Source: Faecalibacterium sp. I4-3-84
GTDB lineage: Bacteria; Bacillota; Clostridia; Oscillospirales; Ruminococcaceae
Length of the DNA stretch: 64,000 bases
NCBI RefSeq assembly: GCF_023347255.1
Contig: NZ_CP094466.1
Location: forward strand, 620,001 to 684,000
Direction of reading: 5' to 3'
Below, piece after piece: positions 12,729 through 34,353 of the stretch. The position numbers and the translations under genes are program-made. Positions within the stretch are counted from its first letter, which is position 1. The number at the start of each line of letters is the position of its first letter. The notes below the pieces were generated by a model. The model saw only the letters and a list, made by a program, of their open reading frames with translations. It was not told the DNA's origin and did no database searches.

Positions 12729-12747
12729 CTCCTTCCGGCTGGAACCG

Positions 12748-15377: not shown

Positions 15378-15415
15378 TTTGTCCACCTTTCTGCCTTTCG
15401 GCTTCGGGTGAACTG

Positions 15416-15486
15416 AAAAAAGCAGCAAAAATCGTCTCAGATTCACCCGTTTTTTTTGAACGGGAATCTAAGATTCCTCTTGCTGC
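15416..15486 (-). terminator. Terminator/attenuator hairpin in the leader of the conjugation operon
   Basis: On the minus strand, GCAGCAA (15480-15486) pairs with TTGCTGC (15422-15428) and encloses an inner hairpin, AGATTC-CCGTT with AACGG-GAATCT (15439-15469). The outer stem is followed by six U (15416-15421), 39 bases before the virB4 start. The layout is that of an intrinsic terminator in a 5' leader. Confidence 0.7.
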
Positions 15487-18528: not shown

Positions 18529-19431
18529 TTACAGATCACTGAACAGGTCGGCCTTATACACGCCGTTCTCCAACATCTTCTTGAAGCTGTCCTTTACAGC
18601 TGCAACATCCTCATGGTAGGTCATACCATACCAGGTGTCGTTGGTCTTCAGAACTTTTACGGACATCTTTCCCTGCTCCAGCAGTTCGCCGATGAAGATA
18701 GGGATCAGATACTCTGCTTTCAGCGGATTGCCCGGAACTTCTTTCTCAAAGAACTCTTTGAAGCCTTCCTCCAGTACATCCAGGAACTCCGGAGTCAATC
18801 CCCACATGTTCATGGAAACCAGAGAATTTACATCCACAGCCACGCCGTCTGCTTCCGCTCCAGTTGCGGTCTTTACAATGTTCTTGGTCTCCACAACTTC
18901 CGTCAGATTGTTCTGCTCATCCATCTTGCAGATACCACGAGTCACACCACCGTTATCGGACAGAGTATTCTTCAGAACAAAGCCTGCCATGCAGGAATTG
19001 CCACCATTCACCAGATACTCATGTACGGCTTTGAAACCTTCCTTGCCATAGTAATCGTCTGCATTGATCACAATGAATGGAGTATCAATCACATTTTTAG
19101 CAGCAAGCACGGCCTGACCGGTTCCCCACGGCTTCGTGCGACCTTCCGGCAGAGTTCCCGGGATATCGTTAATATCCTGGAAAGCATAGTCCACAGTTAC
19201 ATTATGAGAAGAGCAAATGGAGGCAATGCGATCACCGATGACCTCTTTGAACTCCCTCTCAATATCCTTGCGGATGATAAATACTACATGGTTGAAGCCA
19301 GCCTCGATTGCATCATGAATCGAATAGTCCATGATAATATGTCCAGCATCATCCACCGGCTCTAACTGTTTGATTCCTGTTCCGAAACGGCTACCGATAC
19401 CGGCGGCCATGATAAGTAATGTTGTGTTCAT
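18529..19431 (-). CDS. Sugar-phosphate nucleotidyltransferase family protein
   Basis: 300 residues. It should transfer a nucleotide to a sugar phosphate to give an activated donor for the polysaccharide. Visible: N-terminal nucleotide-binding signature LLIMAAGIGSRFGTGIKQLEPV (Gly-rich loop), the metal-binding stretch FIVINADDYYGKEGF at about 115-129, and a Rossmann-like core. The length fits a stand-alone NTP-transferase without a hexapeptide tail. The exact sugar cannot be told from sequence. It lies between the ferredoxin gene and the VanZ-like gene. Codon use is more GC-rich than the genes just upstream and resembles the chromosome. Confidence 0.88.
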   Translation of the reverse strand: MNTTLLIMAAGIGSRFGTGIKQLEPVDDAGHIIMDYSIHDAIEAGFNHVVFIIRKDIEREFKEVIGDRIASICSSHNVTVDYAFQDINDIPGTLPEGRTKPWGTGQAVLAAKNVIDTPFIVINADDYYGKEGFKAVHEYLVNGGNSCMAGFVLKNTLSDNGGVTRGICKMDEQNNLTEVVETKNIVKTATGAEADGVAVDVNSLVSMNMWGLTPEFLDVLEEGFKEFFEKEVPGNPLKAEYLIPIFIGELLEQGKMSVKVLKTNDTWYGMTYHEDVAAVKDSFKKMLENGVYKADLFSDL

Positions 19432-19443
19432 ATTCTTTCTCCT

Positions 19444-19647
19444 TTACTGTACTCGTGCTGCTTTTATAGGACATACTTTAATACATTGGTAGCACCGCAC
19501 GCATTTACTTTCATCAATTTGTGGATACTCAAAGCCCTCTTCGTCCTCTACCATAGAAATGGCTTCTTTCGGACAAATGGCATAACAGGCCGTACACCCA
19601 CAGCAATCTTCTTTTCTTTTATATAATACTGGTATTTTTCTTTCCAC
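19444..19647 (-). CDS. Small 2x[4Fe-4S] ferredoxin, partner of the FrhB-like proteins
   Basis: 67 residues with two full CxxCxxCxxxCP clusters: CCGCTACYAICP and CVRCYQCIKVCP. The sequence matches the N-terminal ferredoxin domain fused to FrhB-like proteins elsewhere in this locus (28222 and 29437 genes), including DEEGFxYPxID between the clusters. It is therefore a free-standing version of the same module. The start (GTG at 19647) overlaps the preceding FrhB gene by 29 bp, so it is translationally coupled. Role: probably supplies or takes electrons for the two adjacent FrhB-like proteins that lack their own ferredoxin domain. Confidence 0.88.
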   Translation of the reverse strand: MERKIPVLYKRKEDCCGCTACYAICPKEAISMVEDEEGFEYPQIDESKCVRCYQCIKVCPIKAARVQ

Positions 19648-20611
19648 CTTTACTCACCAACTTTTTGATTTTTCTCTTTATTTTTCTCAATAGTGATTTT
19701 GCATCATTCTTTAATCCAATGCCCCCATATTTCTTGGCAACATACTCAAACGACCGATTTTGGAAATCGTGCCAAAACTGTTCTCTATTGTGGGGCTTTG
19801 AAAATGGGGCTTTAAGAGGCGGCTGTAAACTGTCTTCCAACTTTGTCTGCTTCCAGATCAACCTCTCTTTTACTTTTTCAAAAGCCCTTTCACCAGCTTC
19901 ATTGTTTATCAGCACCAATGAAACGCCCTTGTTATCATCAAACTCAGGAGCTGCTTTTTCGATACCCCAGTAGTCTGCAATTGTAATATCACCCGGATGC
20001 ATCACAGACTTATAAGGGCATTCGTAGCAACTGGGCCGCAACACCGTATGCCCATAAAAAAGTTCTTTGAACACCCGGCTGCTCGTAGACCTGCCATTTT
20101 CAAAACAAAGTGTTTCCACATGGTCATGCCAACCAAAATCCTTCTTATTTCGGAAATCCACCATTGCAACTTCAGAGTGATTTTTCTGCTCTTGCCAACG
20201 CAGATATGCGTTCCATACTTTTTTACTTGGCACACCGTGACAGACAATGTCCACACAGAATAGGTTATCATACTCTTTTCCAAGGTATTTTTTCAGTCCA
20301 GATACCTGACAGGAAGTTCCAGAAAAAAGTACATCTCTCCTCACATCAAGATCTTCTTTCACATTTCTGAATGTATCACCCAACTTGCTCTGGATGTATT
20401 TTGAGCCTCGCATTCGATTACGCTCTTCTGCATTATCAGCGCGAATATGTACGGCATCAAATTCATCCGTCAAAACACACCCATAGACCACACCACCGTT
20501 GGATAAAACCTGATCCGAAAGAGCTGTAAAAATACCACCCGATCTGGAAGCTGCTCTTGTTGCTTCATCCTTATGTCTTACTGCATATACTTTAGGCTGC
20601 TTCCAATTCAT
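19619..20611 (-). CDS. F420-hydrogenase beta-subunit (FrhB/FdhB)-like protein without ferredoxin domain
   Basis: 330 residues. Family core visible: ASRSGGIFTALSDQVL near the start, RMRGSKYIQSKLGD (about 86-99), FSGTSCQVSGLKKYLG with the conserved Cys (about 115-130), CVDIVCHGVPSKKVW, and a Cys cluster SCYECPY followed by GDITIADYWGI. In F420-dependent enzymes this fold carries flavin and Fe-S and moves electrons; homologues in polysaccharide loci have no proven substrate. It lacks the N-terminal ferredoxin, which is encoded by the next, overlapping gene. Its start shares one base (TAATG) with the preceding paralogue. Confidence 0.88.
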   Translation of the reverse strand: MNWKQPKVYAVRHKDEATRAASRSGGIFTALSDQVLSNGGVVYGCVLTDEFDAVHIRADNAEERNRMRGSKYIQSKLGDTFRNVKEDLDVRRDVLFSGTSCQVSGLKKYLGKEYDNLFCVDIVCHGVPSKKVWNAYLRWQEQKNHSEVAMVDFRNKKDFGWHDHVETLCFENGRSTSSRVFKELFYGHTVLRPSCYECPYKSVMHPGDITIADYWGIEKAAPEFDDNKGVSLVLINNEAGERAFEKVKERLIWKQTKLEDSLQPPLKAPFSKPHNREQFWHDFQNRSFEYVAKKYGGIGLKNDAKSLLRKIKRKIKKLVSKGGKKNTSII

Positions 20612-21618
20612 TATGCCGCCCTCCTTTCGGAGTAATCAGCATAATCGAGGTTATTTAGTTCGTACCCCCCCCTCAAAATTTTGATGAGTTTATTCTTTAC
20701 TTTTGTCTTCATTGGAACTGTTCCATATTTCTTCATCACGAAATCAATTCCTTTCTTTTGATAATCGTTCCAGAATGCATCTCTTTGTTCAGACTTTTGA
20801 GTCGGCGCTTCAAGATTCGCCTGCCAACATTGTGTTGTATTGCTTAATCTATAATCCAAATTATCTCGAATCTTTTCAAACAATTCTTCACCCCGGTCAG
20901 TATGAATCAAGAACAGAGAATTACCATTAGGGTCATAAAAATCTGGAATAGTCTCTTCAATATGCCAGAAATCCCCAATGGTCATATCTGTTTTTCGTTC
21001 TGTGGTCGCATAAGGGCATTCATAGCAAGACGGCCGTAACGCACACCGATTATAAAACACCTTAACATAATCTTTAAGCGGTCTCTCTGACCCGTTGACT
21101 TTCACGTAAGCTGTAGGCGATTTCCAACCATTGCGCTTGTCTTTGAAGGTAAGATAAGTTATCCTTCCATCCTTCTTTTGTATTGATTCTGCATATTCTC
21201 TCCACAGTTTCGGACTTGGAGAGCCGTGGCAGATAATGTCTACGATATACACCCTATCACGAATTCCTTTTATTTCACTGAACTTCCGAAATCCATCTGA
21301 TTGACATCCCATGCCAACAAAGAGCAATTCTTTCTTTGGATTATCCATTAACCAATGATACGCTTTCTGGTAAATATCACCGGGCTTGCTCTGCATATAT
21401 TTTGAGCCTTTTGCTCTTTCACGCTGCTTCTCATCCAGAATCATCTGGAATTCCACAGTATGATTCTCATAATTATAGACTGCAGCCACCACAGCATCTC
21501 CGCTTTTCAGAAAAGCATCCGAAAGTGCAGTAAATGCGCCACCAGAAGAACTGCTCATCAAGGCAGATTTGTCTTTTAACCTTCCTGCATATACTATTGT
21601 ATCTATCAAATCCACCAT
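20611..21618 (-). CDS. FrhB/FdhB-like protein, divergent paralogue with a G8 tract near its 3' end
   Basis: 335 residues, same fold as its neighbour: SSSSGGAFTALSDAFL, RAKGSKYMQSKPGDIY, VDIICHGSPSPKLW, SCYECPYATTERKTDMTIGDFW. The usual G-T-P/S-C-Q block reads VGMGCQSDGF, so the Cys is kept but its surroundings differ. No ferredoxin domain. A run of eight G (minus strand, about 20654-20662, codons for Arg-Gly-Gly) lies 15 codons or so before the end; a slip there would replace only the C-terminal tail and remove the in-frame stop that couples it to the next gene. AT-rich composition. First of a three-gene redox block with the 19619 and 19444 genes. Confidence 0.86.
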   Translation of the reverse strand: MVDLIDTIVYAGRLKDKSALMSSSSGGAFTALSDAFLKSGDAVVAAVYNYENHTVEFQMILDEKQRERAKGSKYMQSKPGDIYQKAYHWLMDNPKKELLFVGMGCQSDGFRKFSEIKGIRDRVYIVDIICHGSPSPKLWREYAESIQKKDGRITYLTFKDKRNGWKSPTAYVKVNGSERPLKDYVKVFYNRCALRPSCYECPYATTERKTDMTIGDFWHIEETIPDFYDPNGNSLFLIHTDRGEELFEKIRDNLDYRLSNTTQCWQANLEAPTQKSEQRDAFWNDYQKKGIDFVMKKYGTVPMKTKVKNKLIKILRGGYELNNLDYADYSERRAA

Positions 21619-21836
21619 AGGCTGTTCCTCCTGCGTATTATTTGTTTTTAATTACAGTTTTGACCTTGTGTAAACCAACAAGAAATATAATCGTTGCACA
21701 AAAAGCACATTTGTCGCAATATATCTATAAATCGATTAACCTCCGAGCTTATCTACTACTCTCTAAAAAGCAGTAATAAGAATCGAATGAAAAATATAAA
21801 ATCATGTGGAATACTCTCTTTAATCACAGCCAAAAC

Positions 21837-23243
21837 CTATTTTCCAAAGCGACTTTTTACTAATTTCATGCCAGATTTCAACATATCAACATTCGTCAGC
21901 ACTGCATAGATTGCTGTGATACAAAGTGCGATGAGCTGAATCATCTTATTTTCACAATAGTATGTTCCTATCAGCATAGTACCAATTAGAATGCTTCCAA
22001 TAATAATTGGCTTCCGAATTCGCATATGCACAGTCTTATTAACATCAATATAGCGAATGATAAACATTGAAAAGAATGCAACCAGTGTAGATATTGACGC
22101 TGCAAAAATCTTAATTTTATTTATTAAAATCAAATTCACTGTAATATTGATTATAGCTGCAGAAATAGAAGTATAAGCAATCTTTTTTGCATTTTTCTGA
22201 GCTACATATATGCAACTATATAATCCGACGAGCACTCTAAAAAGCATTGCATACATCAAAATCAAGATTTGATCATATCCAGCGACATACTTCTCATTAA
22301 TCAAAATCGGGAATACAAATGGCATACACGCAACAATGCCAAAGCATGCAGCTGCAAACAGTTTAAAAAGAGATGTCATTGTTTCCGTTAGAAATTCATC
22401 GCGATCCTCATCATCAAAATGTAATGATACTGTCTCCGTCCAGGACAAATTCAAGATATTATAAAAATTGATAAACACATTAGGAAACTTATTTGCTATA
22501 GAATAAATACCATTGGCAGCGGTTCCTAAAAAATGTGCAATTATAGTTCTATCCGACGCATTTACAACCCACCAAGCCAGATTATTGGGAATTAAAGGAA
22601 TAGAATAAGCACCAACCCGTTTGAATACCGTCGGCCGAATACTCTTAACAGAAAAATACTCCCACGCTCTGGATGTAAACACCAAATACAACAACGTCAA
22701 AAACTGAGCTATCAGAGTGGACAAGAACAATCCTTGCAGCCCCATTTTCAAAATAGCCAGCGCAATGACATTTAAAACTGTTGTTGCCGAAGCGGATATA
22801 AACGATGCAATTGTATATTTAACACTATCTCCCAATCCTCTAACAAATTGAAGAAACAATGCCGTGTAGACATGCAACACCACATACAGCAACAAAAAAT
22901 ATGCATTTTGAATTTTCAAAAAAGGTTCTACACAAACAAAAAGAATAATGTAAATAATACTTTGTATTGTACTAGATAGTAACAGCGTAGAAAAGAGTTT
23001 TCCTTGTTCTTCTTTGTTTCCACGATAATCAAGCATAAATCGGAACAGTCCCTGATCCAACTGCCAGTTTACGAGTGGAAGTAATAATGTTGAATATGTG
23101 ACCAATAAATCAAACGTGCCATACTCTTCCGTTGACAAAATTGCCGTATATAAAGGAAGAAGGAAAAAACTAATACATTGTGTGCATAGTTTTCCCACTG
23201 TAAGTATAGCCGTATTTTTTGCTAATTCTGTTTTACGACTCAT
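21837..23243 (-). CDS. Oligosaccharide flippase, Wzx type (MOP superfamily)
   Basis: 468 residues with about 12-14 hydrophobic segments throughout. It should move lipid-linked repeat units across the membrane. Start KTELAKNTAILTVGKLCTQCISFFLLPLYT has the typical N-terminal helix pattern of polysaccharide biosynthesis exporters, and NLAWWVVNASDRTIIAHFLG at about 225 is the usual mid-protein block with a conserved Arg/Asp. AT-rich, like the genes on both sides. The gene stands alone between two non-coding stretches, 218 bp from the FrhB genes downstream and 352 bp from the pyruvyl transferase upstream. Confidence 0.9.
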   Translation of the reverse strand: MSRKTELAKNTAILTVGKLCTQCISFFLLPLYTAILSTEEYGTFDLLVTYSTLLLPLVNWQLDQGLFRFMLDYRGNKEEQGKLFSTLLLSSTIQSIIYIILFVCVEPFLKIQNAYFLLLYVVLHVYTALFLQFVRGLGDSVKYTIASFISASATTVLNVIALAILKMGLQGLFLSTLIAQFLTLLYLVFTSRAWEYFSVKSIRPTVFKRVGAYSIPLIPNNLAWWVVNASDRTIIAHFLGTAANGIYSIANKFPNVFINFYNILNLSWTETVSLHFDDEDRDEFLTETMTSLFKLFAAACFGIVACMPFVFPILINEKYVAGYDQILILMYAMLFRVLVGLYSCIYVAQKNAKKIAYTSISAAIINITVNLILINKIKIFAASISTLVAFFSMFIIRYIDVNKTVHMRIRKPIIIGSILIGTMLIGTYYCENKMIQLIALCITAIYAVLTNVDMLKSGMKLVKSRFGK

Positions 23244-23595
23244 TAATATTATCCCTCATATAATTAAGTATTTTTTGACTGTGTAGAATTTTTCAGTTCT
23301 CAATATCTCAGTGAATGAGCCAAAGCTATAGGCACTTCACTGCGTCAGATACTAAAATGGCAACAGAAGGCTACTCGAAATTAACCTTCATTGATGTTCG
23401 TTTAACCATTCCTAGCGTATCTCCATTTCTCTATGGAAAAATATCTTCCATATCCATCAAGAATATCATTGTCTCCAGAAATCCTAACTGCCTTTACCTA
23501 TAACTATAGTGGCTATCAAGCGGGTGTCCTCCCCCATGGATACTATTCCTATCGACTCATTCCTTGAATTGTTGATTACTGACTCACTTTCCGTT
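23244..23595. other. AT-rich gap without an intact gene
   Basis: 352 bp between the flippase and the pyruvyl-transferase genes. I find no ORF with an SD on either strand. On the minus strand two short open stretches (IATIVIGKGS; then a block with DGYGRYFSIEKWRY) end in stop codons, which could be remains of a decayed gene, but they are too short to assign. A possible promoter for the flippase would have to lie here. Confidence 0.35.
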
Positions 23596-24636
23596 TCAGA
23601 CTTCACATGATTTAAGAGCGTCTATATATCTCTTTTGTGATTCCTGCCTTTTTCTTTCGATTATAGTCTCGAATAATTCATAACTATGTTGTTTGGTAAT
23701 CAGGCTCTCAAATTCATCATATGTAGCTGTCAATGACAACATTGTCTCTTCTTTATGTGTCCACTCAAGTAAATCTTTCAATTTTTTTGAACAACTATAG
23801 ATAGCGCACTTCTTATGATTCAACAATGTGAAAATCGTCCCATGGAATGTCGTTGTATAAACACACTCAGAAAAACGAATATATGAACTAAACTCCATCG
23901 GGTGACAGTTAATATTCAAATCACACCAGGACTGATACAAACATATCGATACAAGTTTTAAATTATTCTTTCTTGCATATCTTTTTATATATGCCTGATG
24001 TTCTTTAGGAACGCTATATGAATAAACAATCATATATTTATCTTTAATCTTACGTTCGTGCGGAAAATCAAATTCATTAATAGGCAGTAACATCGTAGGA
24101 TCACAAACAATTTCTACTTGCTTTGCAACAAGTTTTCCAACAATATTCCTAGTATTTTCATCTCTTACACCCACATACGTCATTTTTTCCAAGCACTCTC
24201 TAACCCATGGAAAATCATTATAATCCTTGAGTGCTGCCTGTCCTGCACTAGGTGCATATGCTATACAGCTTTTTTGCTCCACACCACCATAAAAAATCGG
24301 ATTTTGAAATTGTGAAACCTTTATGTTCCAAATTTCATCACTACCTACTACTATACAATCTAAATCATCAGTATTTTTCTGAATATCAAATTCCTTTAAT
24401 GCCTGAGTCATGCGCTTATAACGTGCACATAAAAAGGGATATCGTTGAATACACCTAATCAATTCCTTTATGGTCTTGGGTTTAGAAAAAAATTCCTTTT
24501 TTCGCTGCTTTTCATTTCTCCACTGTATAAAACACACATTATGGTTATTCTTTTCTAAAAAACATTTATTAGCATATGCTTGCAAATAAGCACCGCAGTT
24601 CGCCGAATCATACGGAGTTACTATTCCTATTTTCAT
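23596..24636 (-). CDS. Polysaccharide pyruvyl transferase family protein (copy 1)
   Basis: 346 residues. Members transfer a pyruvyl group from phosphoenolpyruvate to form pyruvate ketals on surface sugars. Seen: start MKIGIVTPYDSANCGAYLQAYANKCFL, CIVVGSDEIWNI (about 94-105), CIAYAPSAGQA, the block VGVRDENTRNIV, and the C-terminal CVYTTTFHGTIFTLLNHKKCAIY, which corresponds to the family's D-x-F-H-G-x motif (here TTFHGT). Length normal. It ends the sub-operon with the Wzy-like gene, four bases away. The specific sugar acceptor cannot be read from sequence. A second family member lies at 30661-31830. Confidence 0.87.
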   Translation of the reverse strand: MKIGIVTPYDSANCGAYLQAYANKCFLEKNNHNVCFIQWRNEKQRKKEFFSKPKTIKELIRCIQRYPFLCARYKRMTQALKEFDIQKNTDDLDCIVVGSDEIWNIKVSQFQNPIFYGGVEQKSCIAYAPSAGQAALKDYNDFPWVRECLEKMTYVGVRDENTRNIVGKLVAKQVEIVCDPTMLLPINEFDFPHERKIKDKYMIVYSYSVPKEHQAYIKRYARKNNLKLVSICLYQSWCDLNINCHPMEFSSYIRFSECVYTTTFHGTIFTLLNHKKCAIYSCSKKLKDLLEWTHKEETMLSLTATYDEFESLITKQHSYELFETIIERKRQESQKRYIDALKSCEV

Positions 24637-24639
24637 AAT

Positions 24640-25896
24640 TTACTCTAATTCACTCCCATCATCATTATTAGCATAATTAACACTTATTGCGCATGCAATA
24701 AAATACGGCACAAACATTTCACGATCATACAAAGGATTTCCTGTGAAGCCATATAATAAAAAAAATATTTGCATTGCCAACGAAAAATTCATCAAGCAAT
24801 AATCTTTATTCATATAATCTTGTGGATTTACACGCATTTTTGAATACGTCGACCATGTCCTTACTAGATGAAACAGAAACCATCCACAATAGATTATAAA
24901 TCCTATTATACCGGTTTCAACAAGTAACTGAATATATATGTTATGAATATTCCAGAACCAGCCACCTTGGTTAACATACTGTCCCCAACCTATACCAACA
25001 AGACTATGCTTGCCGAACATAGAAAACGCCTTTAACCATACATCAACTCTACCTACTGACATATCCCCAGTCTCTGCAGTATCAATAAAACGAAAAACAA
25101 CAGTTGCAAGTGCCGGCACGCAATAACTTGCTACAGCAAATACAGTTAATGCTCCCAATAAAACGCCTATGCATTTTACGAGTCGACTTTTTTTAGCATT
25201 TGAATTATATGCAAAATAGCAGAGGTACAACGCAGTAAGTCCAAAAACAGTATGTGCTCTTTTTCCTGATAAAAGCAATGCAGCAACCGATATCAAAAAC
25301 AATAAATAGTCAGAACGTCTTTTTTCAGTCAATGCATAGCTTCCAAATATCATCGTCCCAACAGCAAGAAGCATTCCATTTGTTGAATAGTGCTTTGTTA
25401 ACCCTGGGATTCCCGCATTATGATACTGATTAAGAATTGTACTCGCAGCATCCGGGAACAAATTACATACAAAATTTATCGCTGAACTATCTAAAAACAT
25501 ATAAATGGTAAATGCAATATAAATAAAGTAAAGATATCGCCAAGAGCTTACCATTTTTATCATCCAACACCGATCATTGAAACCTCCCGATGCTGAAAAT
25601 AATATACAGCAGACAAAAAGCAATAAAACCTGGATATACGTTAGACTATAGAATTTAATATTGGGATTATTTCGTACATAAAAGAATATCATTAATGGTA
25701 TCCACAATAATCCAATATTTTTTTTTATACCTTTAGTGCCAAATATAAAAACAACTTGTCCCGCCAAAATAACTGCAGCACTGAACGGAACTACGCTTGG
25801 CAAAAGCGAACCAAGAGACGCTAGCGTAGCAAAAGTCAAAATTGGTATACATTGGAGTAAAAGTCGTAGTTCATGTTTCTTAACTTTTAATTGCAT
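24640..25896 (-). CDS. O-antigen polymerase / ligase-like membrane protein (Wzy type)
   Basis: 418 residues with 10-12 hydrophobic segments and one large extracellular loop containing TAETGDMSVGRVDVWLKAFSMFGKHSLVGIGWGQYVNQGGWFWNIHN, which holds the R-x-x-x-W...H-x-x-x-G-x-G-x-G and H-N pattern of Wzy/WaaL proteins (W, H and G positions visible). It should polymerise repeat units on the outer face of the membrane. Extremely AT-rich with a transmembrane bias. It is four bases upstream of the pyruvyl transferase and 74 bases after the GT2 gene, in one leftward transcript. Confidence 0.85.
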   Translation of the reverse strand: MQLKVKKHELRLLLQCIPILTFATLASLGSLLPSVVPFSAAVILAGQVVFIFGTKGIKKNIGLLWIPLMIFFYVRNNPNIKFYSLTYIQVLLLFVCCILFSASGGFNDRCWMIKMVSSWRYLYFIYIAFTIYMFLDSSAINFVCNLFPDAASTILNQYHNAGIPGLTKHYSTNGMLLAVGTMIFGSYALTEKRRSDYLLFLISVAALLLSGKRAHTVFGLTALYLCYFAYNSNAKKSRLVKCIGVLLGALTVFAVASYCVPALATVVFRFIDTAETGDMSVGRVDVWLKAFSMFGKHSLVGIGWGQYVNQGGWFWNIHNIYIQLLVETGIIGFIIYCGWFLFHLVRTWSTYSKMRVNPQDYMNKDYCLMNFSLAMQIFFLLYGFTGNPLYDREMFVPYFIACAISVNYANNDDGSELE

Positions 25897-25970
25897 CTAT
25901 ATCCCTCCATCTAGCAAATAGATTTTTCATACAAAATACATTCTCTCTGCAGCACGTTTTTTCAAGATAA

Positions 25971-26924
25971 TCATTTTGAAACACACCTCATAAATTTATA
26001 CAAAAGAATGCAATATTTTATAGATAAAACACCAAACACTTGTTTTTTGTCCATATATGAAAGCACTGATTTAAAACTAGTAGATTTAATTTTATCAATA
26101 ACTAGCTGATACTCCTTTTTGTATTGATCTCTGAAAGGATACATCCTACGTAGAACAGTGTAGTATGCAATCAATAATTGATATCTTGCAAAGACTTCCA
26201 AATTATTACGGCCTTTAAGTTCTTCATATATTCTATCCGCAAAGTACAGTGAATCGAACCATCTTTCAGAGAAGGATTGATTAGTCACCGAATTTTCCCT
26301 GCAATAATAATAATACAATTTTTCAGCACAATAGACTATTTTTTTACTTTTCAGCAGAGATCTAAATACAAAATATTTATCTTCATTTATCTTCTTACCT
26401 TCTTCAAAATGAACATCCTCGATCGTAGAAGCTTTAAACAACTTATTCCATGCGCCCGACTCAATTTTTTGGCCCAACAACAGCCATTCTATCGCCTGAT
26501 CAACAGTAATTTCCTCATAATTGCAATGATACTTTTGCTTCTCCTCTTGCTTTTTTTCAAAAATCCTATCAACTCCACACACAGATATATCTGAATCAGT
26601 TTTCCTTGCTTGAGTATATAAAATCTCAAGCATTCTGCAATCAAGTTCATCGTCAGCATCTATAAAAATAATATAGTCACCTGTTGCATTTTGCTTTCCT
26701 ACATTACGAGCTTTTGATACGCCTTGATTATCTTGATTTATTATGATAATGCGCTTATCAATCTCTTGTAATCTATAGCATTCAGCAAGAGATTGATCAT
26801 TAGATCCGTCATTTACGACAATAACTTCTATATCTTTCAATGTTTGTTGCAAAACTGAATTTAAAGTATCAACTATATAATTTCCTGCGTTATAGACAGG
26901 GATAATAACACTAATATGTGGCAT
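25971..26924 (-). CDS. Family 2 glycosyltransferase
   Basis: 317 residues. The GT-A fold is clear: ISVIIPVYNAGNYIVDTLNSVLQQT (4-28), EVIVVNDGSNDQS with the nucleotide-binding Asp (33-45), NQGVSKARNVG, and the DxD-type motif FIDADDELD (about 91-99). The C-terminal third is helical and basic. It adds one sugar to the lipid-linked intermediate at the cytoplasmic membrane face; donor unknown. The start has the typical M-P-x-I-S-V-I-I pattern. Its neighbours are the Wzy-like gene downstream and a FrhB-ferredoxin fusion gene 86 bp upstream. Confidence 0.92.
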   Translation of the reverse strand: MPHISVIIPVYNAGNYIVDTLNSVLQQTLKDIEVIVVNDGSNDQSLAECYRLQEIDKRIIIINQDNQGVSKARNVGKQNATGDYIIFIDADDELDCRMLEILYTQARKTDSDISVCGVDRIFEKKQEEKQKYHCNYEEITVDQAIEWLLLGQKIESGAWNKLFKASTIEDVHFEEGKKINEDKYFVFRSLLKSKKIVYCAEKLYYYYCRENSVTNQSFSERWFDSLYFADRIYEELKGRNNLEVFARYQLLIAYYTVLRRMYPFRDQYKKEYQLVIDKIKSTSFKSVLSYMDKKQVFGVLSIKYCILLYKFMRCVSK

Positions 26925-27010
26925 TGGTGTCCTCCCATAGAATCATTCTATTCAAAAATCTTACACTCTCCATCTTCAAATATGTGTGTGAATAAATCGA
27001 AGCAATCCAA

Positions 27011-28222
27011 TTACTTATTCTCAACAACCTCAACTTTTTTTCCTTTATTTAAATGGCGTGCAACAGTTATTAGGCCTGTTTTGAATAGAAATCTTTTAGA
27101 TTTTTCAATTATTTTATCCTTTAATGTAATTGGATCAATTTTATTCAAAGCCTTATCAATTGGATAATGTTCAGCCAGCTGGTAAAATTCAGCCCGCCTA
27201 GGATGTGGTTTTGCACTATTGCAAACCATAACACCATTTTCCGTCACAAGACTATTTACATCTTCTTCTTGTATTTCAATATGTGATTTTATGGCCTCTA
27301 AAATCTTTCCACCTTTTTCAGTATGCACAAATATTGATGAATACCCTCTATTATCATCTTTTCTTCCGGTGATTTTTGAATATTCATAACAATCAAAGAC
27401 AGTGATATCGCTTGGTCTTTCTATTCCTTTAAAAGCACATGCTGCGCAAGATGGTCTTGATGAGATTTCTCTTACAAACGCCTTCATGTATGGATCGACT
27501 CTACCAGACCCATAGTAGGTTTTTCCATTTGCAAAATCTATTTTCATCGTGCTCGTGTGATACCCATATGTTTTATGTTTAAAACGGGCTCCAACTATTT
27601 TCGAGCTGTATTTGTTTTCCATATACTTCACATAGTTATCCCACAAGCCAGGCGATGGTACACCTCGGCAAACAAAATCCACACATAAAAGGTTATCTGG
27701 TTTTTTCCTTAAAAAGCTTAGCAGCCCTGCCACTTGACAAGGTGTCCCAGAAAACAAAATAGTCGTGCCTTCTTTTAATTCTTTTTTAATATCTTGAAAA
27801 ATGTTTCCAAGATCACTTTGAACAAATTTAGAGCCTCGCATCTCCTGCAACTGTTGCTTTGTAGTAGCCCTTTTACACACTACTCTCATGTTATTGTCGT
27901 ATCCAGCTCCATAAACTATACCATTCTGCTCAAGGATATAATCAGCTAGAGCTGTGAATGCACCACCAGAGGTACTCTCATAGAGAATTTTGTTATCTTT
28001 AATTCTAATAATATAGCCTTCTGTTTTTTCAGATATTACCGTTTTTTTATTAAGAATCGGGCATGCTCTTTCGCATGCTCCACATTCAATACAACGTCTC
28101 ATATCAATTTTAGGATACAGAAAACCTTCTTCGTCAGGAACCATCGTAATTGCACTTTTAGGACAAGAACTTGCACAGGCAGTGCAGCCACAACAATCCA
28201 ATTTGCTCTTTATTTGAATCAT
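27011..28222 (-). CDS. Ferredoxin-FrhB fusion protein (copy 1)
   Basis: 403 residues from ATG at 28222 (GGAGG five bases upstream; the longer reading from 28255 has no SD). N-terminal 2x[4Fe-4S] ferredoxin: CCGCTACASSCP and CIECGACERACP (about 7-55), then the FrhB-like domain with STSGGAFTALADYIL, EMRGSKFVQSDLGNIF, LFSGTPCQVAGLLSFL (conserved Cys), CVDFVCRGVPSPGLW and SCAACAFKGIERPSDITVFDCYEY. A C-terminal basic helix may contact the membrane. Domains present separately at 19444-20611 are joined here. The substrate in polysaccharide loci is unknown. Confidence 0.9.
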   Translation of the reverse strand: MIQIKSKLDCCGCTACASSCPKSAITMVPDEEGFLYPKIDMRRCIECGACERACPILNKKTVISEKTEGYIIRIKDNKILYESTSGGAFTALADYILEQNGIVYGAGYDNNMRVVCKRATTKQQLQEMRGSKFVQSDLGNIFQDIKKELKEGTTILFSGTPCQVAGLLSFLRKKPDNLLCVDFVCRGVPSPGLWDNYVKYMENKYSSKIVGARFKHKTYGYHTSTMKIDFANGKTYYGSGRVDPYMKAFVREISSRPSCAACAFKGIERPSDITVFDCYEYSKITGRKDDNRGYSSIFVHTEKGGKILEAIKSHIEIQEEDVNSLVTENGVMVCNSAKPHPRRAEFYQLAEHYPIDKALNKIDPITLKDKIIEKSKRFLFKTGLITVARHLNKGKKVEVVENK

Positions 28223-28265
28223 ATATCCTCCTGAATCCAAATCATTCAGAAGCAATAACAGATTC

Positions 28266-29437
28266 TCATTTCTTGTTCTTCAGAAACTTATACACACCCA
28301 TCCGATAAAAGATTCCTTTAGATTTCTCTATTAAATAATCCCTTATTCTGATTGGTACAAACTTTTGTATATGTGCTCTTAGGGTTTCTTTATCCAAATT
28401 CAGATAGTATTCATCTCGTCTTGGATGAGGCTCTGCTGAATGGCAAATCATCGTGCCATCCAATTCTATAGCCTTTTCCAAATTTGTTGCATAAAGCTCA
28501 TACCTGTCTGCAATTCTATCCAGAATCCTTTCTCCCTTTGAAGACTGCACGATCAGATTAGTAAAGCCTTTATCATCATCAACAAGACCTTCCACTAAGT
28601 TATTTGCATGCCAGCAATCATAAATAGTGAAATCACTACATCGTTCCACTGATTTAAAGTGACATTGATAGCAACTTGGTCTTGACGAAATTTCAGCAAA
28701 GAAACTCTTAAGCATTGGATCCACACGGGCGCTTCCATAATAAACAAACTGATTTTTGAATCTTATACGCATGGTGCCACTGTGATATCCATATGTTTTA
28801 TTTCTGAAAACAATATCATCTATTTCTGAATGATATTTGTCTTTTTGTTCGTCTAAATATTTTTTCCAAAGTTTCGGCGACGGTGTACCATGGCAAACCA
28901 AATCTACGGTTACCAGATTATCGTATTCTTTTCTCAGATATGATTTTAATCCATACACCTGACACGGCGTTCCAATAAAGCACACTTTCGTTTCTTGCAT
29001 CAAGTGTTTTTTTATTTCAGAAAAGCAATCGCCTAAATCGCTCTGCACGTATTTTGAACCTCGAAATTCTTCTGCCCCCCGGAAATTTTATGAATTACCT
29101 TATATTCTTCATTATAAGTTGCGCCACAAATAACACCTCCCTGATTTAGGATCCATTCGCCTAACGGTGTTACAAATCCTCCAGAGGTACTTGTAGAAAC
29201 AATTTCTACGTCCTTTGCTCTGAGTACGTATGCTTTTCTATCAAACATTTTAGACTCGATTTTATTTTCAATAGGACAAGCAGAATCGCACAATTTGCAA
29301 TCTATACACTTTGAAATTTCCACGAATGGATATAAAAAGCCCTCTTGATCCTGCTGCATACTTATAGCTTTTTTCGGGCATACACTATAGCATGCCGTAC
29401 ATCCACAGCAATCTGCTTTATTCTTCACTACAATCAT
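28266..29437 (-). pseudogene. Ferredoxin-FrhB fusion protein (copy 2), frameshifted at a G6 tract
   Basis: Two overlapping frames make one protein of about 390 residues. The first (29437-29033) has the ferredoxin (CCGCTACYSVCP, CIDCKLCDSACP) and the start of the FrhB domain up to HKISGG, then runs into QKNFEVQNTCRAI and stops. In the -1 frame the same DNA reads AEEFRGSKYVQSDLGD and continues to 28266 through FIGTPCQVYGLKSYL, VDLVCHGTPSPKLW and SCYQCHFKSVERCSDFTIYDC. The shift falls exactly at six G (minus strand, about 29076-29081); one more G restores the frame. It could be a fixed mutation, a phase-variable tract or a sequencing error. About 35% GC. SD GGAAGGAG before ATG at 29437. Confidence 0.85.
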
Positions 29438-29460: not shown

Positions 29461-30597
29461 TTATAGTTTTTCAGCAACATTCAAATACAGTTGTGCAAGT
29501 GTATCTGCTGTCTGCTGAATATCATAACCTGCCTGCTCCAATATTTTTCTTTCACTTTTCCTTTGCACATTCATATACTTCAAAACATGTTCCGCCCACA
29601 CATCAGGTTTTTCTTGAAGAGAAAGGAATTCTGTATTTGAAGTTAAGCCTACTTCTTTTGTTATTGCATCTGAGAAAACACATGGCAATCCGCTCGCCTG
29701 TGCCTCAACCCCCGTGACCGGAAGACCTTCATGTAAAGATGGCATTACAAAAACATCCATTGCCTGCCACATTTTATTCATTTCATTTGAAGCTCCATAA
29801 AAAATTACAGCGTCTTCAATTCCTAATGTCCTAGCCTTATTTTTCATCGCTTCTTGTAGTTCACCAACGCCAAATAAAAGTAACACAGTATTTGGATTTT
29901 TTCGGTGTACTGCTTGAAAGATGTCCAGCAAAAAGCTGTGATTTTTTTGATCAGAAAACCGTCCAGCGTGTCCTACAACATACTTACCTTCCAGATTCAG
30001 CTTTTTTCGTATTTCTCGACGAATAGCTTCATTATAATCATATTTCTCCAAATCAATTCCATTCGGAAGTACTGAATACCTACCAGATTCAATAATCGAC
30101 CTCGGAAATAGAAATCTTGCAGCTAGTTCTGAACAGCCATAAAAGTTATCGCAAAAGAGTGGAATTAATGGCTTTAAGATTTTGCTCATAAATCGAATTC
30201 CATTACCTGCTGCTCCAAAGCCAGCATTGTGACTATGTATTGTAATATATTGAACCCCACCCAATTTTGCGCCAATAATATTTGTCATATCTGCTGCACA
30301 ATCCGCATTATAATGTAGGATTTTAATATGATTTCTCTTGCAGACTTTCCGAATTTCATTAATTCTCCAAATTCTTCTAAAAGGTCTAAATTTCACATTA
30401 TCCGCTGAGGCAACATACTTTTTACTTCCCAATGAAAGAACTTTGTCTTCCATAGGTTCGTGCCTATCATGAAAAACAAGATAGTCAAAATTTATTTTAG
30501 ATCTGTCCAGGTGTTCCTGGATATGAATCATCATATTAGTTACACCTCCAACACCAAGCGGAGATGTCACCAATACTCTAACTACTTCATTATTCAT
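29461..30597 (-). CDS. Family 4 glycosyltransferase (GT-B fold)
   Basis: 378 residues from ATG at 30597 (AAAGGAT upstream); an in-frame ATG at 30630 lacks an SD. N-terminal acceptor domain with VLVTSPLGVGGVTNMMIHI (Gly-rich loop), central HYNADCAADMTNIIGAKLGGVQYITIHSHN, and the C-terminal donor domain with GHAGRFSDQKNHSFLLDIF, LLLFGVGELQEAM, and the E-x7-E motif region SLHEGLPVTGVEAQASGLPCVFS. This matches EpsF-like family 1/4 transferases. Donor sugar unknown. It precedes the frameshifted ferredoxin-FrhB gene by 24 bp and is part of the leftward operon. Confidence 0.9.
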   Translation of the reverse strand: MNNEVVRVLVTSPLGVGGVTNMMIHIQEHLDRSKINFDYLVFHDRHEPMEDKVLSLGSKKYVASADNVKFRPFRRIWRINEIRKVCKRNHIKILHYNADCAADMTNIIGAKLGGVQYITIHSHNAGFGAAGNGIRFMSKILKPLIPLFCDNFYGCSELAARFLFPRSIIESGRYSVLPNGIDLEKYDYNEAIRREIRKKLNLEGKYVVGHAGRFSDQKNHSFLLDIFQAVHRKNPNTVLLLFGVGELQEAMKNKARTLGIEDAVIFYGASNEMNKMWQAMDVFVMPSLHEGLPVTGVEAQASGLPCVFSDAITKEVGLTSNTEFLSLQEKPDVWAEHVLKYMNVQRKSERKILEQAGYDIQQTADTLAQLYLNVAEKL

Positions 30598-30660
30598 ATA
30601 ATATTTATCCTTTCGCGGCGACAATCTCATGCATTATTTCATATTCCTATTTCGGCACGA

Positions 30661-31830
30661 TTACACACGCTTTCTAATTTCTTTCAATACAGTCTTTAAA
30701 TATTGATCTGTTACCATCTTAAGGTTTTTATACTTTTCCCCTACAGCTTTATAGTCAATATCATCTTTTACAACGTCTGATAAGTCCATTCCATTTTTAT
30801 AGCGCCGACTTTCTAGACCAAAATTCACACACAGGGTATCAATACGAGAATTTTTTGAAAAGCTGGAATTTTCAGCATATCTGTTAAATACCACAAACTG
30901 CTTTTCATTAAGAATAGAAAATGCTGTTCCGTGGAAAGAATCCGTGCAGACATACTCTGCATTTCGCAGAAGATTTAGAAATCTTTCTGGACTCACATCA
31001 TACGGAGCAAAGTCTCCAAAGTTTTCATCTTCTTCTACATACTGATCCATGTGTCGTAACGCAACGACTTTCATGCCCTTGTCATGAGCTAATTTCTTTA
31101 CTGCATTGCGATATTCCTGTGTGGCACCAAGGAAGTATGCAAAAATATATGGCTCATTGATTTCTCTCTTATTAGGAATTCTCTCCAGCCATTCTTTTTT
31201 ACTCAAAAAGAAAACAGGATCTAAAATCGTAGGAACATCTCGACCAGTCAGTTCCTTGACAATCTCACTTCCTCGATTTTCACGCATACTAATGTATTCG
31301 ATGCGGTTCAAATACTGTACCGTTCTTTTCCTTTGATACCACGGAATTTCCTTTACTCCAAAACTAGAAGCAATTGAAATTTTTAGCGTGTCATCCGGAA
31401 CAAACATCAAATTGTAATAATTCGTCGGCAATCCTGCCGGACTCCAAAGCTGATCGCTTCCTGTTATAACCGCCGAATATTTCTTTCCACCCTCGCATAA
31501 TGCCGCATAGCCGATATACTCATCGGAGAAATCCTTAAAAGCCCATTTTTTGAAACTCGCAAATGCTTTCATACGAACTTCATTGTTTTTTGCATACTCA
31601 GGATGCTTTTTCAGACTAAGCTTTCTCTGAATTCCCTCATACCTGCTATTAAACCAAACTGCATTAAAAAGACGCGGCACGTCTTTCAGTGCTTCTGTCA
31701 TAGTCTTCTTTCTAGTATATCGAACCAGCTCATACTCAATATTCTGATTTTCCAAATAACTAACAGTTGCATATGCTTGCAATATGCCTCCGTAATTTTC
31801 ATGCATATATTTTATGCATACTCCAACCAT
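30661..31830 (-). CDS. Polysaccharide pyruvyl transferase family protein (copy 2)
   Basis: 389 residues from ATG at 31830 (GAGGAG seven bases upstream). Family features: N-terminal CIKYMHENYGGILQAYATVSYLE (cf. S-x-N-x-G-A-x-L-Q-A-Y), YSAVITGSDQLWSPAGLP (about 108-125), SIASSFGVKEIP, SMRENRGSEIVKEL, TILDPVFFLSKKEW and EYVCTDSFHGTAFSILNEKQFVVF, with the D-S-F-H-G-T motif intact. In copy 1 the same site reads TTTFHGT. Role as for copy 1: addition of pyruvate to a sugar of the repeat unit. It lies between two glycosyltransferases. Confidence 0.88.
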   Translation of the reverse strand: MVGVCIKYMHENYGGILQAYATVSYLENQNIEYELVRYTRKKTMTEALKDVPRLFNAVWFNSRYEGIQRKLSLKKHPEYAKNNEVRMKAFASFKKWAFKDFSDEYIGYAALCEGGKKYSAVITGSDQLWSPAGLPTNYYNLMFVPDDTLKISIASSFGVKEIPWYQRKRTVQYLNRIEYISMRENRGSEIVKELTGRDVPTILDPVFFLSKKEWLERIPNKREINEPYIFAYFLGATQEYRNAVKKLAHDKGMKVVALRHMDQYVEEDENFGDFAPYDVSPERFLNLLRNAEYVCTDSFHGTAFSILNEKQFVVFNRYAENSSFSKNSRIDTLCVNFGLESRRYKNGMDLSDVVKDDIDYKAVGEKYKNLKMVTDQYLKTVLKEIRKRV

Positions 31831-31857
31831 TTTAACCTCTCCTCTATGCTGCACATC

Positions 31858-33175
31858 TTACTCTTTCAGCAGTTCCTCATATATTGCCTGATACTTCTCG
31901 TTTTTTTTCTGCCAGGTATACTTTTCTGCTTTCTTTCGTGCGTTTTTTCCACGCCTTGTTACTTCATCAGGATAAGCAATACATTCAAGAATTGCCTTTT
32001 TTAAATTCTCAATGTATTCCTCTTTCGAGTTTCCTCCATAAAGCCAACCGGTGTTTTCATCAAAAAGAGTTGCTCCGCCAAACTTATTAATGGTGATAAC
32101 CGGAATACCTTTTGACATTGCCTCCAGTAAGACCGTGCCTGTCGTCTCTCGAATGCTCGGCATAATAAATACATCCGCACCTGCATATTCCTTTTCCATT
32201 TCCATATAGGGAATAGAACCCATGCAGTGCACATGCTCAGACAAGTTCAGGTCTTCCTTACCGCGTTTACGTAGATGCTCAAGTTCCGGGCCATCGCCTA
32301 CAACTCTAACCTGATATCTAGTCTCCTGCGGAATTCTCATCAATGCATCAAAAAGAAAATCCAAGCCCTTTCGATATATCATTCTTCCAGCAACCAGAAA
32401 GACGCATTCTTCATTTCTGCCCTTTTCATTGCAATTATCTTTAATATCATTTATATCTACCGCAACCTCAGTCACTGGCTCATCACTTACATTGTAATTC
32501 TTCATTCACTTTTTCCTTTTCTGTCCAGTTCACCAATTCGTCCGGTCTTAATCCGTTATCAAAGACTAATTCATACGGACAGTTTAGTTCTGCCCCCTCT
32601 ACGAGGAATTCTTGAGTCTCTTTATTTGCAAACATAATATAGTCGCAGCGATTTAGTTTGCCAGTGATTCTCAGTTTAAAACGATACCAGCGATTTATCC
32701 CTGAGCGAACGACTTCAATGATTTCATGCCCCTTTGCGTAATCTTTTAATCCATTAGGCAAAGACTCTCCTCCGCCAAGTGGTCCGCAGACGAATTTGAT
32801 ATTTGCTATCTTTCCATAGTCTCCAATTGCACGGAATTCAATTGGCGTAATCTGATGAATAACGTCAATTTTTTGATCCGCACAGATTTTTTTTGCGAGA
32901 GGAAGTACCCGTCTATTCCACACATTAAGTCTTCCAGAATACATAAATCCCTTGAAGATTTTTTTGTAAAAATTAGGGATGTCAACATAATAAAACTTTA
33001 TATTTTCAAGTGGGTGACTCTGCAAATATTTTTCGACTGGTTCACGTTGTTCTTCTTTTGTAATTACATAAACTTTATTTGTTTTTGAACTTTCATAAGG
33101 AACGCACCAACCGATTTTATCTTCACTTCCAGCAAAAGGGTTACATGAATAAGCTATATACAGGATATTCATCAC
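31858..33175 (-). CDS. Family 4 glycosyltransferase split into two overlapping ORFs (33175-32483 and 32505-31858)
   Basis: The first ORF (230 residues) is a GT-B N-terminal domain: ILYIAYSCNPFAGSEDKIGWCVPYE, CADQKIDVIHQITPIEFR, FVCGPLGGGESLPNGL. The second (215 residues) is the matching donor domain: VFLVAGRMIYRKGLDFLFDALMRIP, VVGDGPELEHLRK, MPSIRETTGTVLLEAMSKGIPVITI. Together they equal one normal family-4 enzyme. The ORFs overlap by 23 bp in different frames. The second ATG has its own SD (AAAAGGA, 8-nt spacing) and a stop codon directly before it in frame. A one-base change after that point would fuse them, but coupled expression of two halves is also possible. Gene is AT-rich. Confidence 0.8.
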
Positions 33176-34353
33176 TTCGTCTCCATCTGCTGTGCAATAT
33201 CAGCATCCACGATTTCCTCGCCAGTCTTATGCTTCAGCTGCTCCTTGGATGCTTCACTCAGACCGTTGTTGATCACGCAGTTCATATCGCAGGTACTGCA
33301 CTTATCCAGTTCCTCTTTGGTAACTTTTCCATCACGGTAGTCACGGCAGATTTTCAGCTCATACATGCTGTACGGATGCTTTGTGAACAGAGCCTTGAAC
33401 TTATGAACCAGAACCCAGGTAGCAGGCTTCCAGATGTACTTGTGCATAGCCGGGGAAACAGAACCGATCATCCAGCAATCGCGGTCACAGCAACGAACCT
33501 TCGCACGAACCTTCTCTGCTTCAGGGCTGTTCCACAGCTCATCCCAGGTCTGATTGTTCAAGTTACCCATGACCTCTTTATCCTTGGTGCCGTTGCAAGG
33601 CATAACATCGCCATACGGATCAATGAAGAAGGTATCAAAGCTCATGTCGCAAGGCAGCAGACGCTTCTGGCCGTAGATGTAGTTGATCAGGCCGTGGTTG
33701 AAGTAAGCACGGAACCACTTCTTCGGGCTATTGCTGCGGAGTAGTTCATTGACCAAATTCTCGAAGTTCTTTGCAACCATCGGACGATCGTGGATGATGT
33801 TCTTCGCCTCAACGAAGTAGAAGCTGTTATGCAGAGAAGCAGTTGCAAACTCCATGCCCATCTCGTCAGAGATCTTGTACAGCGGAACCAGGTCAGGAGC
33901 GTTCTTGTCCTGAACGGTCATACCGAAGCCAACGTCCTTCATGCCCATTTCACGCAGCTTCTTCAGTGTGCCGTAACCACGCTGGTAGCCGTTCTGCAGG
34001 CCACGAATCTCATTATTGGTCTGCTCCAGACCCTCGATAGAGATACGAATACCGATCTGAGGGAACTCCTTACACAAATCAACGATACGATCTGTGAAGA
34101 AACCGTTCGTGGAAATAACGATACGGTCAGACTTCTTGTACAGTTCACGCACGATATCTTTCAGGTCAGTACGGATGAACGGCTCGCCGCCGGTGATGTT
34201 TGTGAAGTACATCTTCGGTAGCTTCTTGATGGTCTCGATGCTGATTTCCTCTTCCGGCTTGGAAGGTGCCTTATAACGGTTGCACATAGAGCAACGAGCA
34301 TTGCAACGATAAGTGACGATGACCGTACCATTTAACTTCTTTTCTTCAGACAT
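33172..34353 (-). CDS. Radical SAM enzyme with SPASM-type C-terminal Fe-S domain
   Basis: 393 residues. It should cleave S-adenosylmethionine at a [4Fe-4S] cluster held by CNARCSMC (Cys17, 21, 24). Then GGEPFIRTDL (about 54-63), STNGFFTD and a radical SAM barrel. The C-terminal region carries a SPASM-like series: CDMSFDTFFIDPYGDVMPCNG, EVMGNLNNQTWDELWNSPEA, RCCDRDCW and KCSTCDMNC, enough for auxiliary clusters. Substrate unknown; SPASM proteins in surface-sugar loci have been connected with sugar or peptide modification. Codon use is GC-rich and chromosomal, unlike the AT-rich genes directly downstream. It overlaps the acyltransferase upstream by 8 bp and the glycosyltransferase downstream by 4 bp. 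Confidence 0.9.
   Translation of the reverse strand: MSEEKKLNGTVIVTYRCNARCSMCNRYKAPSKPEEEISIETIKKLPKMYFTNITGGEPFIRTDLKDIVRELYKKSDRIVISTNGFFTDRIVDLCKEFPQIGIRISIEGLEQTNNEIRGLQNGYQRGYGTLKKLREMGMKDVGFGMTVQDKNAPDLVPLYKISDEMGMEFATASLHNSFYFVEAKNIIHDRPMVAKNFENLVNELLRSNSPKKWFRAYFNHGLINYIYGQKRLLPCDMSFDTFFIDPYGDVMPCNGTKDKEVMGNLNNQTWDELWNSPEAEKVRAKVRCCDRDCWMIGSVSPAMHKYIWKPATWVLVHKFKALFTKHPYSMYELKICRDYRDGKVTKEELDKCSTCDMNCVINNGLSEASKEQLKHKTGEEIVDADIAQQMETK

Follow-up and report, generated by a model that had tools for sequence, protein, structure and literature searches.

A 64,000-nucleotide window of the genome of Faecalibacterium sp. I4-3-84 (positions 620001-684000 of the single 3.12 Mb contig) contains a surface-polysaccharide locus in which four genes for FrhB-like proteins, with the fold of the F420-hydrogenase beta subunit, stand together with two genes for polysaccharide pyruvyl transferases (PPT). 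We propose, with a probability of about two in three, that PPT and FrhB act in two successive steps, as one module, to build ether-linked lactate, i.e., a 1-carboxyethyl group, on a sugar of the surface polysaccharide. A preliminary description of the window, made from its letters alone, had already placed the six genes in one locus. Pfam matches bear this out, and these four PF04432 genes and two PF04230 genes are the only ones in the genome (E ≤ 0.001, 3.12 Mb). The same description suggested that an electron chain of its own might serve sugar modification, for example on a pyruvylated unit; the linkage reported below favors this in outline, but no reaction had been named.

In the proposed route, the PPT would transfer enolpyruvate from phosphoenolpyruvate (PEP) to the sugar. 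FrhB, which is expected to carry flavin adenine dinucleotide (FAD) and a [4Fe-4S] cluster, would receive electrons from a fused or free ferredoxin and reduce the enolpyruvyl C=C bond, giving the lactyl (1-carboxyethyl) ether that we infer as the product in this organism. The gene order suggests two modules in the locus, one of PPT2 with FrhB3 and FrhB4 and one of PPT1 with FrhB1, FrhB2 and the free ferredoxin.

Linkage of FrhB and PPT genes

Among the 31 genomes of the genus, including the present one, both families were found in nine, FrhB only in one, PPT only in two and neither in 19 (Fisher p = 2.5e-5). In all nine genomes with both families the genes are on one contig, separated by about 5 kb or less. 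A second strain of the same species (G028) has neither family.

In a sample of 196 genomes of the class, again including the present one, FrhB was detected in 55, with 74 matches, of which three weak ones (G037:C37, G119:C28 and G125:C372) were dropped. Within 10 kb of a PPT were 57 of the remaining 71. All 27 FrhBs in the class genomes of the first listing, the four of the window included, were PPT-near. Another 34 class genomes were searched again and gave 30 PPT-near matches out of 44; most of these genomes had been picked for the lack of a listed PPT nearby, so that the figure is biased against linkage, and one of the 30 pairs (G100:C51) depends on a PPT fragment below the cut-off. The class statistics are Pfam counts, since a first PPT profile missed divergent PPTs. 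As a control, Wzy_C genes without FrhB within 20 kb were counted in the same 34 genomes, and 14 of 83 were near a PPT (p = 1.3e-8). With only the stronger rows of this control (87 of 103, the 16 weakest omitted) the count was 14 of 69 (p = 4.8e-7). The co-occurrence with pyruvyl transferases that the preliminary description had put forward for checking is thus found in both genus and class.

A scan of named genomes, in partial overlap with the class sample, covered the best 80 of at least 573 confirmed relatives. By title these 80 belong to Bacillota, Bacteroidota, Spirochaetes, Actinobacteria (Adlercreutzia), Elusimicrobia, Kiritimatiellaeota, Lentisphaerae, Fibrobacter and Alphaproteobacteria. 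A PPT was present in 70 of these best 80 stretches. Their 87 FrhB frames were fused to a PPT in four cases, within 150 bp of one in 38, within 2.5 kb in 22 and further away in 12, and 11 had none. On a plasmid of Ruminococcus albus 7 the PPT is adjoined by a split FrhB and a separate ferredoxin.

The Escherichia coli and Bacillus subtilis control genomes contain PF04230 and lack PF04432. Both organisms presumably make pyruvate ketals, and since PPTs make ketals without FrhB, FrhB should add something.

The strongest competing explanation is that the PPT makes an ordinary pyruvate ketal and that FrhB, using ferredoxin, independently reduces or oxidizes a nucleotide sugar or glycan in the same loci. 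Many modification genes gather in polysaccharide loci, and some FrhBs occur without a PPT, as this explanation would have it. However, the 38 FrhBs within 150 bp of a PPT and the far weaker PPT linkage of the Wzy control (14 of 83) speak for a closer relation.

FrhB-PPT fusion proteins

Nine distinct proteins in which FrhB and PPT are fused were found in the class sample and the named relatives. Six have the order PPT-ferredoxin-FrhB (L064, L068, L099, L102, L165 and L219; L197 is the same as L099) and three the order ferredoxin-FrhB-PPT (L100, L101 and L217), and Pfam confirms L064, L100 and L217. The seven fusions that are present in the PPT tree described below occupy four places and therefore do not stem from one inherited event. 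A frame-broken FrhB/PPT fusion also occurs in the genus of the window (G022, locus L112). That fusions exist in both orders argues for consecutive steps on one substrate and against FrhB being independent of the PPT.

Nitroreductase in place of FrhB

On three small E. coli plasmids a nitroreductase gene adjoins the PPT; the nitroreductase is truncated in one of them and the PPT in another. One of the three, L224, also has a PPT behind FrhB, and over 1227 bases this PPT is 99.3% identical to the one behind the nitroreductase on plasmid L225. Either reductase can thus precede the same PPT. The identical stretch begins directly behind the reductase gene in both plasmids, and the annotated frame in L224 starts later. 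Paracoccus alcaliphilus encodes an 849-aa PPT-nitroreductase fusion, and a Lactiplantibacillus plasmid carries PPT, flippase and nitroreductase genes. Such a nitroreductase was found in two class genomes, directly beside a PPT in L230 and not so in L231, where the match is weak and partial. Two Rhizobium nitroreductases of this type had no PPT nearby. Of 36 plasmid records, four were examined.

That flavin reductases of two unrelated kinds can occupy the same genetic position points to reduction after pyruvyl transfer. More tentatively, we suggest that there may be a general and horizontally mobile route to lactate ethers, unrelated to MurA/MurB, in which a PF04230 enolpyruvyl transferase works with an interchangeable flavin reductase, either ferredoxin-fed FrhB or nitroreductase. 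It is speculative that FrhB would give the (R) and nitroreductase the (S) configuration, an idea drawn from a single structure of each configuration, of which the (S) one has no assigned reductase.

Agreement with known polysaccharide structures

The accessible part of PMC4616057 reports PPT genes in only four (K8, K22, K37 and K66) of 46 Klebsiella capsule types without a ketal, and, across 79 Klebsiella loci, a nitroreductase gene twice and an F420 hydrogenase gene once. In Table 1 of PMC6856556, as far as accessible, O-lactyl (O-lac) sugars are tabulated for K22, K37 and K66 only, and K8 is given with pyruvylated galactose, i.e., a ketal. The chance that three given types would all be among four of 46 is 2.6e-4. 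The reductases add up to three (2 + 1), which fits the three O-lac types, the assignment of each reductase to a type not being readable in the accessible source. K22 is also cited, in the reference lists seen, as another glycan with 4-O-[(S)-1-carboxyethyl]-D-glucuronic acid, and the K22 and K37 loci differ only by acetyltransferase genes according to the same part of PMC4616057. That K22, K37 and K66 carry a PPT yet no ketal in these sources is difficult to explain by ordinary ketal formation.

A search with a fused gene matched five E. coli genomes, and FrhB, PPT and an O124/O164-type wzx were present in all five. Before these loci were found, we had taken E. coli O58, O124 and O164 and Shigella dysenteriae 3 and 5 to contain a lactic-acid ether. 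The O124/O164-type cluster, seen whole in one genome and in part in a second, consists of galF, wzx, FrhB, PPT, four glycosyltransferases, wzy, glf and gnd, with no other modification gene annotated from galF to gnd in the whole cluster. Three of the five genomes have an interrupted PPT frame, and intact copies exist. The clusters of O124 and O164 share 98-99.9% identity (PMC4732683, accessible part), and 4-O-[(R)-1-carboxyethyl]-D-glucose is given for Shigella dysenteriae in the accessible text of PMC10609480. An FrhB-PPT pair is also carried by the E. coli IAI1-type cluster (eight genomes). A distant blastn search of E. coli with a Bacteroidales PPT-FrhB stretch gave no match. Ruminococcus albus and Butyrivibrio, presumable makers of lactate-ether sugars, are not described as such in the text consulted of two papers and were given no weight.

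FrhB and ferredoxin proteins

Both PF04422 and PF04432 score above cut-off in the three intact FrhBs, and the broken FrhB4 meets PF04432 only. All four proteins contain four core cysteines, one each in G-x-x-C-Q and C(H/R)G and two in C-x2-C, and each of the three ferredoxin modules has two complete clusters. The preliminary description was therefore right about the conserved G-x-x-C-Q and C-x2-C cysteines and about the completeness of the ferredoxin clusters. The ferredoxin cysteines and the four core cysteines are invariant across a 35-row FrhB alignment; from what is known of the family we take the core four to be [4Fe-4S] ligands. AlphaFold gave a model of FrhB3 from the 35-sequence alignment with a mean predicted local distance difference test score (pLDDT) of 91.8 and a predicted template modeling score of 0.90. 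Foldseek matches of this model were beta subunits of F420-reducing enzymes, F420-dependent sulfite reductase and the plant enzyme 7-hydroxymethyl chlorophyll a reductase (HCAR).

The NCBIfam equivalog cut-offs were missed by FrhB3, with 43 bits against 475 for FpoF and 25 against 331 for frhB. CofH (TIGR03551), the one cof gene searched for, was not found in the genome. Because CofH is absent and the cut-offs are missed by far, F420 use by these FrhBs appears unlikely, in line, as far as tested, with the earlier argument that F420 is not known from Clostridia and another flavin or electron source must serve. A search of viral contigs for FrhB yielded five pattern matches, none of which is a relative. 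At locus L069 (8558-10363) FrhB is fused to a C-terminal domain resembling a left-handed-helix acyltransferase, and FrhB frames of about 600 aa occur in several of the 80 named loci.

Pyruvyl transferases and their active-site motif

The two window PPTs exceed the PF04230 cut-off (95.5 and 138.2 bits versus 25.3) and do not reach that of the CsaB equivalog in NCBIfam (29 and 21 bits versus 213). For the AlphaFold model of PPT2 (pLDDT 92.1), most Foldseek matches were epimerases and glycosyltransferases of the GT-B kind; Pvg1p (5ax7) ranked 30th. According to the accessible text of PMC10435577, R148, H308 and K328 of CsaB are critical for PEP binding, R217 and R337 touch PEP in a model of Pvg1p, and CsaB has been assayed in vitro with PEP and an acceptor. 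The Arg of a VR(E/D) motif and the His of an xxH motif are invariant in PPT1 and in 28 FrhB-linked or related PPTs, the 28 having been chosen for their Ser-x-His type. These two residues are taken as putative counterparts of CsaB R148 and H308.

The residue two positions before the His is Ser in PPT2 (SxH) and Thr in PPT1 (TxH), so neither has RxH. In 51 FrhB-adjacent PPTs it is Ser in 37, Thr in two and Arg in 12, and in 14 of 14 PPTs labeled CsaB-like by similarity it is Arg. A PPT tree of 76 rows was built from a random 30 of 51 FrhB-adjacent and 12 of 47 FrhB-near PPTs, the first 10 of the 14 CsaB-like ones, all fused rows, all rows of the set without FrhB and 12 named rows. It splits with a support of 100/100 into an SxH side of 45 rows and an RxH side of 28, and three rows are ungrouped. 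The SxH side holds both window PPTs and the six E. coli PPTs that come from loci with FrhB or nitroreductase; the rows closest to PPT2 are FrhB-adjacent PPTs. On the RxH side, a second FrhB-linked group stands beside the CsaB-like proteins and WcaK. For three of the SxH PPTs, the short stretch available contains no FrhB. Many CsaB-like PPTs lie in frames of about 740-790 aa and are probably fused to another domain (e.g., G127:C56 and G221:C1 445621).

The family name and fold of the PPTs, and the ketal-type motif retained by the RxH subgroup, are what one would expect if FrhB were independent and the PPT made a ketal. Taken together with the linkage, the fusions and the Klebsiella types, we still consider that explanation unlikely.

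A ketal could also be an intermediate: FrhB might reductively open a pyruvate ketal made by the PPT, so that the same lactyl ether would arise by another path. The genetic evidence is the same for this as for the enolpyruvyl route, and both PPT clades are FrhB-linked, one of them with the ketal-type motif. Chemically, however, reductive C-O cleavage of a ketal is harder than reduction of an enol ether, and to our knowledge no flavoenzyme precedent exists for it, whereas MurB provides one for the enol ether. We therefore judge ketal opening to be improbable.

Least probable of all, and very much so, is that the FrhBs serve as electron donors to a different redox enzyme encoded in the locus, for instance the radical SAM/SPASM protein of 33172-34353: a radical SAM gene also lies beside PPT-FrhB in Pseudobutyrivibrio (L058, 9723-10895), but none is annotated in the O124, IAI1-type and O69 clusters despite their FrhB, and the fusions found are to PPT.

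Observations that weigh against a lactate-ether module

Several observations count against lactate-ether formation by FrhB and PPT. Of the class FrhBs, 14 of 71 have no PPT within 10 kb, three of them on contigs shorter than 4 kb. In the eleven stretches examined around these 14, some FrhBs sit in housekeeping surroundings and three (L078, L091 and L093) are adjoined by a cytidylyltransferase-like gene; the family must therefore serve other functions as well. The neighbor in these three loci resembles, as named from sequence, glycerol-3-phosphate cytidylyltransferase and marks another FrhB context. In Sinorhizobium meliloti a PPT-FrhB pair (one record) is outside any evident polysaccharide locus. 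The window itself has four FrhBs, one of them broken, for two PPTs, and three of the six nitroreductase neighborhoods examined are without PPT. The second FrhB-linked PPT group retains the RxH motif of ketal enzymes; the motif alone therefore does not tell the product.

The structural evidence has its own weak points. Which Klebsiella type has which reductase could not be read from the source, it is a presumption that O124 and O164 share the lactate ether of Shigella dysenteriae, and the locus check covers only these two of the five types named beforehand. FrhB and PPT are also present in the E. coli O69 cluster (one of three genomes examined). The O69 repeat published in 1978 is said to be a plain tetrasaccharide without lactate, which would be a counterexample if right and would suit an FrhB that acts independently of a ketal-forming PPT.

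Organization of the locus

The genes of the locus are listed in Table 1. They are located in an island of low G+C content, with 34-37% at 22-32 kb of the window compared with 51-53% in its first 14 kb and, past 40 kb, 55-60%.

Table 1. Genes of the FrhB-PPT locus in order of transcription (window positions).
Feature	Position	Strand	Pfam match
PPT2, pyruvyl transferase 2, 397 aa, SFH type	30661..31854	-	PF04230, E = 6.9e-40
Family 4 glycosyltransferase	29461..30630	-	PF00534/PF13439
FrhB4, first piece: 2x[4Fe-4S] ferredoxin and FrhB N-terminus	29033..29437	-	
FrhB4, second piece: remaining FrhB, other frame	28266..29084	-	PF04432, E = 1.3e-24
FrhB3, intact ferredoxin-FrhB fusion, 403 aa	27011..28222	-	Fer4_7, PF04422, PF04432
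Family 2 glycosyltransferase	25971..26924	-	PF00535
Wzy-like polymerase/ligase	24640..25896	-	PF04932
PPT1, pyruvyl transferase 1, 346 aa, TFH type	23596..24636	-	PF04230, E = 7e-27
Wzx-like flippase	21837..23243	-	PF01943
FrhB1, without ferredoxin domain, 335 aa	20611..21618	-	PF04432, E = 1.1e-22
FrhB2, without ferredoxin domain, 330 aa	19619..20611	-	PF04432, E = 1.5e-22
Free 2x[4Fe-4S] ferredoxin, overlapping the FrhB2 end	19447..19641	-	Fer4, E = 3e-12
Nucleotidyltransferase	18529..19431	-	PF00483

The split form at 19444-21618, described earlier as two FrhB proteins plus a free ferredoxin, agrees with the Pfam matches to FrhB1, FrhB2 and the ferredoxin. Of the two fused forms proposed earlier, the one at 27011-28222 is intact, but 28266-29437 is not one open gene, a frame break having been overlooked. 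The two frames of FrhB4 meet at a run of six G near 29075-29080, and the break is due to decay, variation or assembly error, among which we cannot tell. A second apparent frame break in the locus splits a family 4 glycosyltransferase into the overlapping frames 32483-33175 and 31858-32505. PPT or FrhB module genes are also frame-broken in L222, L057, L058 and L112, which might reflect on-off variation of the decoration or decay. To the left of the island, at 10722-15446, NlpC/P60-like and VirB4-like genes, named from sequence, suggest a neighboring conjugative element.

Significance and comparison with known systems

The lactate ether is a known decoration of bacterial capsules and O antigens for which we found no described pathway. 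If FrhB and PPT make it, its origin would be explained and the decoration could be predicted from genomes, and a function would be assigned to the "F420 hydrogenase" genes that lie in O-antigen and capsule loci although their hosts are not known to make F420. A pyruvate ketal could then no longer be assumed from every PF04230 gene, a point of importance for predicting serotypes. No proposal of this FrhB/PPT reaction was found among the papers listed by searches of open-licence PMC, and the Shigella and E. coli O-antigen reviews of Liu et al. (2008, 2020) may already discuss it.

The general co-location of FrhB with polysaccharide genes has already been published. The accessible part of a 2023 study (PMC10267222) reports, for 123 strain genomes, co-location of FrhB (K00441) with lipopolysaccharide/exopolysaccharide genes in gut strains and an association of FrhB with mucin-carrier enrichment, and calls the link uncharacterised. 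The family and the kind of locus are the same as here, but that part of the study names no PPT pairing or reaction; a concrete reaction makes the question raised there testable.

The window FrhBs share PF04422, PF04432 and the fold with the F420-oxidoreductase subunits FrhB, FdhB and FpoF. They differ in missing the equivalog cut-offs, in the absence of CofH, and in that no hydrogenase gene was recognised adjoining them. The FrhB fold is also that of HCAR (Foldseek E = 7.7e-13 to 5dqr), which uses ferredoxin rather than F420; its substrate, however, is a chlorophyll and it has no polysaccharide context. With CsaB, Pvg1p and WcaK the window PPTs have in common PF04230, the Arg of VR(E/D) and the His of xxH, but the Arg two residues before the His (R337 in Pvg1p) is replaced by Ser in PPT2 and by Thr in PPT1, and the window PPTs are partnered with FrhB. 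The closest chemical parallel would be peptidoglycan precursor synthesis, where MurA transfers enolpyruvate to UDP-N-acetylglucosamine and MurB reduces the product to a lactyl ether. The chemistry common to both, as proposed here, would be the reduction of a PEP-derived enolpyruvyl ether to a 1-carboxyethyl ether, with a flavoprotein as the catalyst. Neither FrhB3 nor PPT2 showed homology to MurA or MurB by Pfam (E ≤ 0.001) or among the 50 Foldseek matches listed for each model. Instead, the PPT has a GT-B-like fold and FrhB that of the F420-hydrogenase beta subunit, and FrhB would draw its electrons from ferredoxin and not from NADPH (reduced nicotinamide adenine dinucleotide phosphate).

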